Source: Verrucomicrobiota bacterium (GTDB taxonomy: Bacteria > Verrucomicrobiota > Verrucomicrobiia > Opitutales > UBA953). Taken from it: a DNA stretch of 57,873 nucleotides. The stretch's first letter is position 1; the number at the start of each line of letters is the position of its first letter. Below are positions 13,322 through 17,044 of the stretch, piece by piece. Where the stretch lies: contig VHDL01000014.1 of the NCBI GenBank assembly GCA_016871415.1, positions 1-57,873 of the forward strand. The letters run 5' to 3'. The position numbers were made by a program, and so were the translations under genes. The notes below the pieces were generated by a model that was given only the letters and a program-made list of their open reading frames with translations, was not told the origin of the DNA and did no database searches.

Positions 13322-13729
13322 TCAGGTGGCGGGGGAGGGAGGGGTCATCTCGAAGGGCGGGATGCGCACGAACACGCGTTCGCCGTGGCCGGTCACGCCG
13401 TGGAAGGCGCCTTCGGCGCGCACCGGGCCGGCCGAGAGGTGGTGGCTGCTGTAGGAGAACTTCTCGCCCGGTGCCAGCAGGGGTGACTTGCCGACCACGC
13501 CGTCCCCCTCCACCACCTGCACGCTCCCGTCCTCGGCACGCAGCACCCATTTCCTGCCGATGATGCGGACGGTCTCGGTGGAGAGGTTCAGGATGGTCAG
13601 GAAGTAGGCGAAGGCGTGAGGCGTTTCGTCCGCTCGGTCGGGGAGCATCTGGTGGACCACCCTGTCGACGGTGACCCTGAGGCCGGGTAGCTCCTTGCCG
13701 CTGGATTGCACTGACTTCAGCCAATCCAA
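13322..13729 (-). CDS. apaG: ApaG-domain protein
   Basis: A 135 aa protein of the ApaG (DUF525) family, a fibronectin-III-like beta-sandwich of unclear biochemical role linked elsewhere to Ap4A metabolism and divalent ions. Diagnostic segments are FLTILNLSTETVRIIGRKWV, the glycine-rich VEGDGVVGKSPLLAPGEKFSY, and the tail GHGERVFVRIPPFEM. An in-frame stop lies four codons upstream, so the start must be TTG at 13729 or the GTG six codons later; no ATG is available. It is the first gene of a three-gene minus-strand operon with the beta-CASP and amidase genes. It is divergent from the large fusion gene across 83 bases. Confidence 0.88.
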   Translation of the reverse strand: MDWLKSVQSSGKELPGLRVTVDRVVHQMLPDRADETPHAFAYFLTILNLSTETVRIIGRKWVLRAEDGSVQVVEGDGVVGKSPLLAPGEKFSYSSHHLSAGPVRAEGAFHGVTGHGERVFVRIPPFEMTPPSPAT

Positions 13730-13812: not shown

Positions 13813-16371
13813 ATGTCTTCGTTCGTCGAACGCAAGCGCACCATCCGGCGCGTCCCCGGCAAGTGGGTCGCGCTGGCGGCTTACGTGCTGGCGGTGTTCG
13901 TCTCCCGCTGGGTGACTTCGGAGGATCGTCAGCCCAGGCCCGAGCTGGCTCATGCGGTCCAGGTCGAAACCTGGAAACAGGTCCCCTCGGCCGGAGCCTT
14001 GCCGGTGATCGTGGTGCCCGCCCTGCCGGATCGCGGCGAACACGCCTGGCGCCGGACCGACCTCTTCGCCCGCGCCGAACCCGGTCTCGACGAAGTCCAC
14101 GTGGTCCGCTGGCCCACCGCCTGGCATCGTTCGCGCGAGTCGATGGCCGCCGACCAGGTCGCCGTCGACCTGCTCCGCGCGGTCGAGGCGCACGTCGGCG
14201 GCGGACGGTTCCACGTCGTCGGCGAGGGTATGGGGGGCGTGGTCGCGCTCGAGGTCGCTAGCCGGCATCCGGAACGCGTCGCGTCGCTGACGCTGGTCTC
14301 CGCTCCCGGCGCCCAGGAGTACACGCTCCTCGGCAACGCCGTCGCCAACAAGTTCGTCTATTTCTTCCACCACCTTCCGTTCCTGCTGCTCGACCTCGCG
14401 ACGCCGCACTTCGGCCTGGCCGACCGGCTCCCGTTCAACCGGGGCTACTCCGAGGTCTTCTTCGACAGCGACCTCTCCGGCGCGAAGGCGCAGCTCCGCG
14501 CCTGGAACGGCCCTGCCCTCATCGTTCACGGCTCGTCTGACTGGATCACGCCCGTCGACGCCGCCCGCTACTCCGCCCGGCTCATGCCGCAGGCCCGGTT
14601 GCTCGAGTTCGCAGGCGGCCATGGCGAGGAGACCCGGCGCGCCGCCGCCGACCCCATCAGGGGCTTCATCGCGGACGTCGAGGCCGGCAAGGCCGCGCGG
14701 CGCGCCGCGCCCGTCCCGGCGGCCGAGCCCTATCCCGACCTCGTGGTTTCCGGCGGCGCACGCTTCTGGATCCTATTCATCATCATCATCCTCTGCACCT
14801 TCGTGGCCGAGGATCCCACCTGCCTCGCCTCCGGCCTGCTCGCCGCCGAGGGAATCATCGGCTTCTGGTGGGCGGCCCTCGCCTGCACCGTCGGGATCTT
14901 CATCGGCGACATGGTGCTCTACGCGCTGGGCCGCTGGCTTGGACGGGGCGCCCTGCGCCGCGCCCCGCTGAAGTGGATTGTCAAGGAGCACGAGATCGAC
15001 CGCATGGCGGGCTGGTTCGGCTCCCCGCGGGGCATGCTCGTCATCGTCAGCTCGCGTTTCATCCCTGCCAGCCGCGTACCGACCTTCGTGACGGCGGGAA
15101 TCCTGCGGCTCGGTCTGCCCCGGCTGGCGATGCTGCTCTTCGTGGCCGCCCTTGTCTGGACGCCCATGCTGATGCTGCTCGGCGGCACCCTGGGGCCTCC
15201 CTTCATGGAGCAGTTCCCGCGCTACAAGCAGTACGCGGCCTGGATTGTCCTAGGGCTCTTCGCGCTCATCTGGTTCCTCACGCACTGGATCGTGCCGGCG
15301 CTGACCTGGCGGGGACGCCGTGAGATTGTGATGAAGGTGCGCCGCATCCTCCAGCCGTCGGGCTGGAGGTCGGCCATCCTCTTCCTGCCCCTCCGAATCG
15401 GAATCGCGCTACTCAGCCTGCGGCACCGCAGCCTGACGGCCTTCGCCTCGGCCAACCCCTCCTTCGGGCGCATCGGAGGCTTCACCGGCGACGCCCGGTC
15501 GCTCCTCCTGCGCCCCTTCCAGCGCGATTCGCGCTGCTGCCCGACTCTGGCGGTCTCCTGCGAGGATTCCGCCGAGGTGCGCATGCGCGAGGCCGTGGCC
15601 TTCTCAACGGAGTACGGCTTCCCGGTTGTCTGCAAGCCGGAGGTGTCCGAGAACGGCGCCGGTCTCCGCATCGTCCGCGACGGGGTGGCGTTGGAGAGGC
15701 TGATGCGTGGCGCCGAGGAGGACCTGGTGCTGCAGCCCCTCGTCAAGGGGCGTGAGTTCGAGGTCGTCTGGCGCCGCAGCCCCTGCTGCGACGATGGGCG
15801 GATCATGGCCGTCGTCGAGAAGCGCGCAGTCACCGTGCGCGGGGACGGCGAGCAGACCCTCGAGGAGCTGATCTGGCTGGACGACCGCGCGGTCACGCGC
15901 GCCGCGCTCTACCTCCGCTGCCATTCGCGCGAGCTCACGCGGATCGTGCCTGCGGGCGAGACGGTCACGCTGAATCCGACCGGCAGCTACGGTCACGGCG
16001 CGCGCTGCGTCCACCGTCCCGACCTGCTTACGCCCGAGCTTTCGGCCGCCGTCACCGCCTTCGCCCGCCGGTTCCCGGGACTGCACTTCGCGCGCTTAGA
16101 CCTCTTCTCGGCCTCGACGGAGGACTTCCGTGCGGGCCGCTTCACCTGCACGGAGGTGGGCGGCTGCTGCCAGGCCTCCAGTCTGATCCGCGACGGCTCC
16201 CTGCGCTTCACGCGCTCTTACGCGGCGGTCTGGGAACAGCTGCGCGCCTGCGTCGACGCGGGTGCGGCCAACCTGGCGCAGAAGGTGCGCCCCGTGCCGC
16301 TCGACGAACTGATGGCCCGCTGGAGCGAGGCCAACGGCCGCGCGGACCACTTCGCGGTGACGGAAAACTGA
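13813..16371 (+). CDS. Fusion: degenerate alpha/beta-hydrolase, DedA/VTT membrane domain, ATP-grasp domain
   Basis: An 852 aa inner-membrane protein with three modules. Residues 15-32 form a first membrane segment. Residues about 60-290 are an alpha/beta-hydrolase fold, but the nucleophile elbow reads VVGEGMGG, putting Gly139 where Ser is expected; Asp243 (GSSDWITP) and His270 (AGGHGEE) remain. Residues about 315-495 are a DedA/VTT (SNARE-associated) domain with AEDPTCLASGLLAAEG, FIGDMVLYALGRWLG and SSRFIPASRVPTFVTAG. Residues about 570-800 are an ATP-grasp domain: VCKPEVSENG, LQPLVKGREFEVVW, EKRAVTVRGDGEQTLEEL, then RLDLF and CTEVGG metal-site segments. A role in moving or modifying a lipid or envelope precursor is inference. 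It diverges from apaG and converges with ruvC. Confidence 0.9.
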   Translation: MSSFVERKRTIRRVPGKWVALAAYVLAVFVSRWVTSEDRQPRPELAHAVQVETWKQVPSAGALPVIVVPALPDRGEHAWRRTDLFARAEPGLDEVHVVRWPTAWHRSRESMAADQVAVDLLRAVEAHVGGGRFHVVGEGMGGVVALEVASRHPERVASLTLVSAPGAQEYTLLGNAVANKFVYFFHHLPFLLLDLATPHFGLADRLPFNRGYSEVFFDSDLSGAKAQLRAWNGPALIVHGSSDWITPVDAARYSARLMPQARLLEFAGGHGEETRRAAADPIRGFIADVEAGKAARRAAPVPAAEPYPDLVVSGGARFWILFIIIILCTFVAEDPTCLASGLLAAEGIIGFWWAALACTVGIFIGDMVLYALGRWLGRGALRRAPLKWIVKEHEIDRMAGWFGSPRGMLVIVSSRFIPASRVPTFVTAGILRLGLPRLAMLLFVAALVWTPMLMLLGGTLGPPFMEQFPRYKQYAAWIVLGLFALIWFLTHWIVPALTWRGRREIVMKVRRILQPSGWRSAILFLPLRIGIALLSLRHRSLTAFASANPSFGRIGGFTGDARSLLLRPFQRDSRCCPTLAVSCEDSAEVRMREAVAFSTEYGFPVVCKPEVSENGAGLRIVRDGVALERLMRGAEEDLVLQPLVKGREFEVVWRRSPCCDDGRIMAVVEKRAVTVRGDGEQTLEELIWLDDRAVTRAALYLRCHSRELTRIVPAGETVTLNPTGSYGHGARCVHRPDLLTPELSAAVTAFARRFPGLHFARLDLFSASTEDFRAGRFTCTEVGGCCQASSLIRDGSLRFTRSYAAVWEQLRACVDAGAANLAQKVRPVPLDELMARWSEANGRADHFAVTEN

Positions 16372-16374
16372 GGT

Positions 16375-16965
16375 TCAGCGAGCGGTGAAGGCGTGACAGA
16401 GCGCCGCCGCCGCCGCGTCGGACTCGTCCTCCGGCAGCGTGATCTCCAGGCCCAGCGTGACCGTCACCATGCGGCCCACCTGGGCCTTCGTCGCTCGTCC
16501 ATGTCCGGTGACTGACTGCTTGATGCGCGCCGGGGCGTACTCGGTGACCCTGAGTCCGAGTCGGGCCACGGAGCCGAGGGCCGCTCCGCGGGAGGCGCCC
16601 ATGGCCTGCGCGGTGCGGAAGTTCTGCACGTAGATCGTGCCCTCCACGGCGACATCGGTCGCGCCGTGATCCCGGGCCAGCCGTTCCGACTCCGCCGCGA
16701 TCCGCCCGAGGCACTCCGCCTGGGTGATCCTGGCCGGAAGGCGGACGGTGAGGCTGGCCAGCAGGCGAGGGCGCTCGCCGCGCGCGTCGACCACCGCGAG
16801 GCCGGTCCCGCGCAAGGAAGGGTCGATGCCCAGGATGATCCCGCGGCAGCCGCGGCCGACGCCATGGTTGGCGGACGGCGCCTTGCGGGCGCGCAAGGGC
16901 GACGTCACCCGGGTGGCGCCGCCCTTGAGGCGGGCCGTCCAAAGGTCGCGGGCGGAACGGGCCAT
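16375..16965 (-). CDS. ruvC: Holliday junction endonuclease RuvC
   Basis: Resolves four-way junctions by symmetric nicking during recombination repair. The 196 aa protein carries the RNase H-like acidic residues in GIILGIDPSLRGTGLAVVD (Asp), DVAVEGTIYVQNFRTA (Glu) and LPEDESDAAAAALCHAF (paired Asp). The conserved ARIKQSVTGHGRATKAQVG segment is present. From the first plausible ATG there is a basic extension of about 38 residues before the usual start of the family, and no internal start codon removes it. No ruvA or ruvB is in the window. It ends 3 bases from the convergent fusion gene. Confidence 0.94.
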   Translation of the reverse strand: MARSARDLWTARLKGGATRVTSPLRARKAPSANHGVGRGCRGIILGIDPSLRGTGLAVVDARGERPRLLASLTVRLPARITQAECLGRIAAESERLARDHGATDVAVEGTIYVQNFRTAQAMGASRGAALGSVARLGLRVTEYAPARIKQSVTGHGRATKAQVGRMVTVTLGLEITLPEDESDAAAAALCHAFTAR

Positions 16966-17015
16966 GGGCGGATGTTCATCCTCCGGCGGTCCGCCGCCAC
17001 GAAAAACGACATGGG

Positions 17016-17044
17016 TTGCCATGCGGCGGTCCGGACATTATCTG
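17016..17044 (+). promoter_or_regulatory. Sigma-70-like promoter for the secreted propeller gene
   Basis: TTGCCA at 17016-17021, a 17-base spacer, then TATCTG at 17039-17044. The predicted start falls at about 17051-17053 and the ATG is at 17053, so the transcript should be leaderless or nearly so. Confidence 0.5.

Follow-up and report, generated by a model that had tools for sequence, protein, structure and literature searches.

We read the 852-aa protein described here as a lipid transporter of the DedA type in which both ends, an alpha/beta-hydrolase fold and an ATP-grasp domain, now serve as binding or regulatory domains and which would descend from an aminolipid ligase-flippase-hydrolase machine; we put the chances of this reading at about even. 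A transporter flanked by two retained pseudoenzyme domains is the most economical interpretation because the gene is near-universal in its family (33 of the 35 sampled genomes vs 44 of 238 outside the family, in a 273-genome sample of the order), yet both sets of catalytic residues and both operon partners have been lost there.

The window, i.e., the whole stretch of DNA analysed (57,873 nt), is an entire contig of a 2.2 Mb assembly assigned to Verrucomicrobiota/Opitutae. The host is a freshwater-type bacterium. The gene begins with ATG and forms one open frame of 852 codons, encoding in this order an N-terminal membrane helix, the alpha/beta-hydrolase, the DedA/VTT core, and the ATP-grasp domain:

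13813..16371, plus strand: whole gene, fusion of alpha/beta-hydrolase, DedA/VTT, and ATP-grasp, 852 aa (open frame, Pfam, homologs)
13858..13929, plus strand: N-terminal membrane helix, residues 16-39, with a positively charged stretch before it (predicted model, charge pattern)
13933..14691, plus strand: alpha/beta-hydrolase fold domain, residues 41-293 (PF00561, 4uhd match)
14017..14022, plus strand: Pro69-Ala70, at the site of the oxyanion motif His-Gly of Ser-bearing homologs
14227..14229, plus strand: codon 139, GGT (Gly), at the position of the Ser nucleophile
14539..14541, plus strand: Asp243 (GAC), acid of the former triad
14620..14622, plus strand: His270 (CAT), base of the former triad, replaced by Arg in sister clades
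14755..15300, plus strand: DedA/VTT membrane domain, residues 315-496 (PF09335, helical in the model)
14809..14814, plus strand: acidic pair Glu333/Asp334, invariant in all aligned homologs (alignment; role from PMC10127716)
15055..15075, plus strand: Arg415-Phe-Ile-Pro-Ala-Ser-Arg421, arginine pair at the expected site of the second re-entrant helix, without variation among all aligned homologs (alignment; role from PMC10127716)
15307..15537, plus strand: residues 499-575, comprising a linker with positive charge, a membrane-associated helix, and the NPxxGxxGGFxG-(D/E)-x-(K/R) region
15538..16302, plus strand: ATP-grasp domain, residues 576-830 (model, Foldseek, family profile)
15634..15636, plus strand: Lys608 (AAG), conserved ATP-site lysine
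16099..16101, plus strand: Asp763 (GAC), conserved metal-site acid
16153..16161, plus strand: Glu781-Val-Gly783 (Glu781 GAG, Gly783 GGC), Glu-x-Asn in homologs outside the family, metal-ligand Asn lost

The initial annotation had proposed a three-module fusion at these positions, and its coordinates and residues (Gly139, Asp243, His270, Lys608, Asp763, Glu781, Gly783) proved exact. All three domains are supported in the window protein. The hydrolase fold was recognized by Pfam (Abhydrolase_1, PF00561, E 1.3e-15, above the cut-off) and by structure, as the hydrolase part of the model matched esterase 4uhd with Z 23.0 and an rmsd of 2.7 over 226 residues. The VTT domain (VTT_dom, PF09335, residues 341-457) reached 56.1 bits vs a Pfam cut-off of 33.9 (E 6.5e-15). 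From the single sequence the ATP-grasp signal was weak in Pfam (CPSase_L_D2, 19.1 bits vs a cut-off of 19.8); the fold emerged from a family profile of the ATP-grasp part alone, with E 8e-12 for glutathione synthase 7ta5 and E 7e-10 for cyanophycin synthase among the PDB sequences, and from Foldseek, where matches of the predicted model included cyanophycin synthetase 7wae. AlphaFold gave a confident three-domain model (mean pLDDT 86.7, pTM 0.74); searches with the whole model were filled by the hydrolase domain and barely probed the DedA and ATP-grasp parts. Every version of the protein family has the region of residues 499-575 ahead of its ATP-grasp domain. By eye, an ApaG-like gene (13322-13729, minus strand) and a RuvC-like gene (16375-17022, minus strand) flank the fusion gene; as the former is divergent and the latter convergent, the fusion gene is probably transcribed alone, unlike its operon relatives.

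The charge pattern and the positive-inside rule together suggest that the ATP-grasp domain is cytoplasmic, whereas the hydrolase domain lies outside the cytoplasm, at the outer side of the inner membrane. Net charge is +5 before and -1 after the N-terminal helix of the window protein, it is higher before than after this helix in 81 of 84 homologs (a positive-inside pattern), and the loop C-terminal to the VTT domain is strongly positive in all homologs.

Glu333, Asp334, Asp366, Arg415, and Arg421 of the membrane core are invariant across all homolog groups, and in the window's subclade no domain is as well conserved as VTT (mean identity 92% vs 72% for the hydrolase). The COG0586 subfamily of DedA proteins has an acidic first and an arginine-bearing second re-entrant helix (PMC10127716). 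With the undecaprenyl-phosphate translocases of the UptA type in this group (PMC10127716, PMC9876793), the window protein shares the VTT domain, the preceding acidic residues of re-entrant helix 1, and the two arginines (R-x5-R) at the expected re-entrant helix 2, these positions being assigned from sequence; the NCBIfam UptA model matches residues 340-482 (E 3e-15). It differs from UptA in its score, 56.8 bits vs an equivalog cut-off of 250, and in its fusion to two enzyme folds; furthermore, the genome also encodes a canonical DedA as a stand-alone protein. The latter, one of two further VTT proteins there, is UptA-like (GLLxGFFLPGDS, RFVPVMR) and encoded on contig C9, for which reason we rejected the possibility that the fusion protein is the sole undecaprenyl-phosphate flippase of the genome. 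No DUF368/PopT was found in the genus. In the published survey of DedA proteins, rhodanese, PAP2, and oxidoreductase-type fusions are named, fusions with ATP-grasp or alpha/beta-hydrolase are not (PMC10127716, PMC9876793).

The hydrolase end has no nucleophile (Ser, Cys, or Asp) at its elbow G-x-Nu-x-G: position 139 is Gly in the window protein, in accordance with the initial annotation, and in all 58 aligned homologs from its family. Gly filled all 48 rows of a first homolog set (the query, close homologs, and some duplicates). Of 85 full-length, non-identical homologs with all three modules, drawn from the order and the phylum, 63 carry Gly and 22 carry Ser, the latter making up 22 of the 27 homologs of this architecture found elsewhere in Verrucomicrobiota. 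Most Ser-bearing homologs also possess the HG oxyanion motif, Asp, and His, and therefore look like intact hydrolases. Since homologs of the same architecture elsewhere mostly keep Ser, it was lost once on the branch to the window's family. In the ATP-grasp tree this family is one side of a well-supported branch (SH-aLRT 99), and the Ser/Gly state requires three changes in total (in the window's family, in a degenerate group in f44, and in one in f4). The earlier concern that Ser in homologs of this architecture would reduce Gly139 to a sequencing or single-strain change is borne out in part: such homologs exist, yet Gly is fixed in the family and thus a lineage trait.

A stand-alone, membrane-anchored alpha/beta-hydrolase with Ser (GWSYGGG) that matches the fused domain well was found in another genome of the class (L133, 1393-2682, genome G500), on a different contig from the VTT plus ATP-grasp gene of that genome. 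With its Ser and membrane helix it is a better stand-alone equivalent of the N-terminal domain than the alpha/beta-hydrolase beside the ATP-grasp gene in Paracoccus, an unconvincing candidate whose score is that of any generic hydrolase and which lacks an N-terminal helix.

The usual operon of Verrucomicrobiota outside the window's family starts with a DinB-like gene, followed by a TANGO2/NRDE gene (PF05742) and, as the third, the fusion gene. Three His are invariant in the DinB-like partner (alignment A2), as are Met-Cys-Thr and Arg-Asp-Glu (Cys2, Arg19, Asp20, Glu21) in the TANGO2/NRDE partner. In the order sample, 39 of the 44 carriers outside the family have a TANGO2-like gene, in 38 of these 39 within 2.5 kb, vs none of the 33 family carriers; the DinB-like gene is likewise distributed over outside carriers and missing from family carriers. 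None of the 35 sampled family genomes has either partner, and neither Pfam nor a family-specific profile found TANGO2 in the window's genome. The genomes include MAGs, which miss genes, but many of the 35 are more than 90% complete, and absence from all of them by chance alone is unlikely. Fisher values for the TANGO2 association are inflated by shared ancestry, the loss in the family being one event.

An OlsF-like gene occurs in 36 of 44 outside carriers vs 50 of 194 non-carriers, and about nine of the order's genomes have it next to TANGO2, DinB, or ATP-grasp; the link to OlsF is one of co-occurrence, with direct adjacency at a minority of loci. Additionally, TANGO2-like genes lie directly beside OlsF-like genes at G060:C138, G060:C95, G078:C121, G108:C88, G155:C512, G175:C222, and G038:C4 of the order sample. 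As these genomes mostly have no DedA/ATP-grasp gene, TANGO2 is tied to aminolipids independently. No OlsF-like gene was found in the eight genomes of genus g22, where ATP-grasp is most eroded. The window's genome retains one (G000:C9:66849-68510), so that aminolipid metabolism would still be present there; this weighs against our reading, as do the two further VTT proteins of the genome. The OlsF-like gene is located about 11 kb from the canonical stand-alone DedA gene (G000:C9:79120-79512), and the two share a contig in several related genomes, too.

Outside Verrucomicrobiota, where the search covered plasmid records, Vibrionaceae and Paracoccus encode VTT and ATP-grasp in two neighbouring genes, and in Vibrionaceae these are accompanied by TANGO2 and DinB. 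Salinivibrio (L136, 7271-10438; L146) has separate genes for VTT, ATP-grasp, DinB-like, and NRDE proteins. In Vibrio sp. THAF191d (L143, 5310-11049) the separate-gene system additionally includes YHS, DoxX/MauE-like, and OlsF-like genes, all in one direction; the OlsF-like gene of this marine Vibrio matches the NCBIfam OlsF model with E 5e-128, under the strict cut-off. One Salinivibrio record annotates the ATP-grasp gene as D-alanine--D-alanine ligase, a label that is probably wrong. In Paracoccus, the ATP-grasp gene is followed by the hydrolase gene and a convergent VTT gene.

TANGO2 is a human disease gene of disputed function, considered a heme carrier, an acyl-CoA binder, or an Ntn hydrolase. 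Reportedly, it resembles cysteine Ntn amide hydrolases (PMC13044924) and binds acyl-CoA (PMC11867700), and its bacterial homolog HtpA was described as a heme carrier (PMC10470608). For the window protein, TANGO2/NRDE is no relative, it is the conserved operon neighbour of the homologs. In open-licence papers we found no published link of TANGO2 with ATP-grasp, VTT, or DedA, which is no proof of novelty. Together with the invariant DedA residues, the TANGO2 and OlsF-like neighbours of the homologs support the lipid or envelope theme of the initial annotation. A further parallel is OlsI, an alpha/beta-hydrolase O-acyltransferase that acylates an aminolipid in the ornithine lipid synthesis of planctomycetes (PMC12493201). 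It shares the fold with the window protein, which the NCBIfam OlsI model matches with E 4e-5; however, the score is 23 bits vs a cut-off of 385, the window protein lacks the nucleophile, and OlsI is a separate protein.

The ATP-grasp end resembles amino-acid ligases (glutathione synthase, cyanophycin synthase, D-Ala-D-Ala ligase, RimK) in its fold, in weak profile similarity, and in the ATP lysine and two metal acids (Lys608, Asp763, Glu781); it represents a distinct family with a membrane-associated N-terminal region, and in the window's family it has lost the Asn of the E-x-N metal motif. This Asn is found in 17 of 17 sequences of a set covering one-, two-, and three-module versions and Proteobacteria. 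At position 783, it is invariant throughout the Ser and degenerate groups, i.e., in every homolog outside the family that has three modules, whereas family members never have it. The family has also changed at positions 642, 726, and 788, where the Ser group is fully or almost fully conserved (mostly Glu at 642, His at 726, Glu at 788), and only 1 of 11 sequences from the sister genera g22, g24, and g25 retains Glu781.

Some members of the ATP-grasp superfamily use alternative metal ligands. For this reason, and since Lys608, Glu648, Lys670, Asp763, and Glu781 remain in the window protein, loss of the E-x-N Asn alone is no proof of a dead ATP-grasp domain in the window's family. The initial annotation favoured a binding-only hydrolase joined to a still active ligase, with modification of the lipid by the latter either preceding or following transport. 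We consider this rather unlikely: the conservation of Lys608, Glu610, Glu648, Lys670, Asp763, and Glu781 in the window's genus and the lowest dN/dS of the three domains are in its favour, but the decay of the ATP-grasp domain in the family had been under-weighted. With the metal-site Asn absent, other conserved residues changed, and the usual operon partners gone, the ligase may be inactive, too; judged from these residues, loss of its activity in the family is probable.

Selection on the gene was assessed by pairwise dN/dS with a simple counting method. Median values were 0.12 for the hydrolase, 0.08 for VTT, and 0.07 for ATP-grasp; within the window's own subclade the hydrolase reached up to about 0.36. 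All three domains are thus under purifying selection, and neither end drifts freely. For the hydrolase this confirms that a fold without its serine nucleophile has been retained as a fold. One-module (ATP-grasp) and two-module (VTT plus ATP-grasp) forms are intermixed with three-module forms on the tree, which suggests that loss, or gain, of the hydrolase part took place on many occasions. The genomes of the family are small; most have 1.3-2.8 Mb, compared with 2.3-6 Mb in the majority of other carriers. A slow decay as genomes shrink, in which only the DedA core is needed and the flanking ends have no present role, would fit these sizes and the hydrolase domains repeatedly lost or degraded into two-module proteins elsewhere. 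Yet dN/dS is near 0.1 in all three domains, the folds of both ends are intact in the model, and the full-length gene persists in nearly all family genomes, including some of only 0.9-1.5 Mb, so that we regard slow decay as improbable. The concerted loss rests on one clade and may coincide with genome reduction.

Within the family, the hydrolase decayed stepwise. The deepest genera are without Ser only and keep HG, Asp, and His; the window's genus has lost the HG motif, and a larger sister clade additionally changed His270 to Arg. The earlier statement that Asp243 and His270 remain is therefore correct for the window protein, as well as for its subclade and genera g22, g24, and g25, but does not extend to the family, where 34 of 58 members have Arg at 270. 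The two residues could support an altered mechanism, e.g., general-base chemistry, by which the hydrolase would still be a catalyst; given the Arg of the majority and the loss of the oxyanion motif in the genus, this is very improbable. An artefact (sequencing error, frameshift, or chimeric contig), suggested by nothing but the metagenome-type source assembly of 60 contigs, has practically no probability left and was ruled out by conservation in genus and order, as dozens of independent genomes show the same frame, domain order, and Gly. The frame is open in almost every gene-bearing genome of the genus, and homologs across the order (29-45% identity) argue likewise against a frameshift that joined separate genes. 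In one genome of the genus (L106, G024:C133:8664-10812) a split separates the VTT part of the frame from the ATP-grasp part, owing either to an assembly error or to a real break.

We favour a DedA transporter flanked by two pseudoenzyme domains that would have arisen from a putative assembly line still present in other Verrucomicrobiota. There, with TANGO2-like and DinB-like partners, the cytoplasmic ATP-grasp ligase would modify a lipid, most likely an OlsF-type amino-acid-containing lipid as suggested by the gene neighbours, the DedA core would carry it across the membrane, and the outer hydrolase would cut or transfer an acyl group. In the intact system, an amino acid would thus be ligated to the aminolipid, which would be moved and then deacylated or acylated. 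In the window's family, the hydrolase Ser was lost once, and the metal-binding Asn of ATP-grasp and the two operon partners were lost as well, with the DedA residues invariant and all three domains under purifying selection. The present-day outer domain would hold an acyl-type ligand, and the inner one possibly senses a nucleotide. The capture, flipping, and modification of an envelope precursor proposed initially for the window protein was itself conjecture and fits its Ser-bearing relatives better.

More broadly, these genes may constitute a new, widely distributed lipid-handling system of DedA flippase, ATP-grasp ligase, TANGO2-type Ntn hydrolase, and DinB-like protein, often near an OlsF-type synthase, that was fused with a periplasmic hydrolase in Verrucomicrobiota and became, in one family, a transporter controlled by two pseudoenzyme domains; we hold this to be possible, with the balance tipped somewhat against it. 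If true, TANGO2 would gain a bacterial pathway for functional tests. The intact relatives, found in bacteria that include the cultivable Salinivibrio and other Vibrionaceae, connect it with a DedA flippase, an ATP-grasp ligase, and the synthesis of aminolipids, which makes the link genetically testable, and this cross-phylum TANGO2/DedA/ATP-grasp operon may outweigh the window gene in importance. For the window's family, our reading would mean that two catalytic domains flanking one transporter decayed on the same branch on which two partners were lost, with the transporter left intact, and would provide a natural experiment on how enzyme domains turn into sensors.
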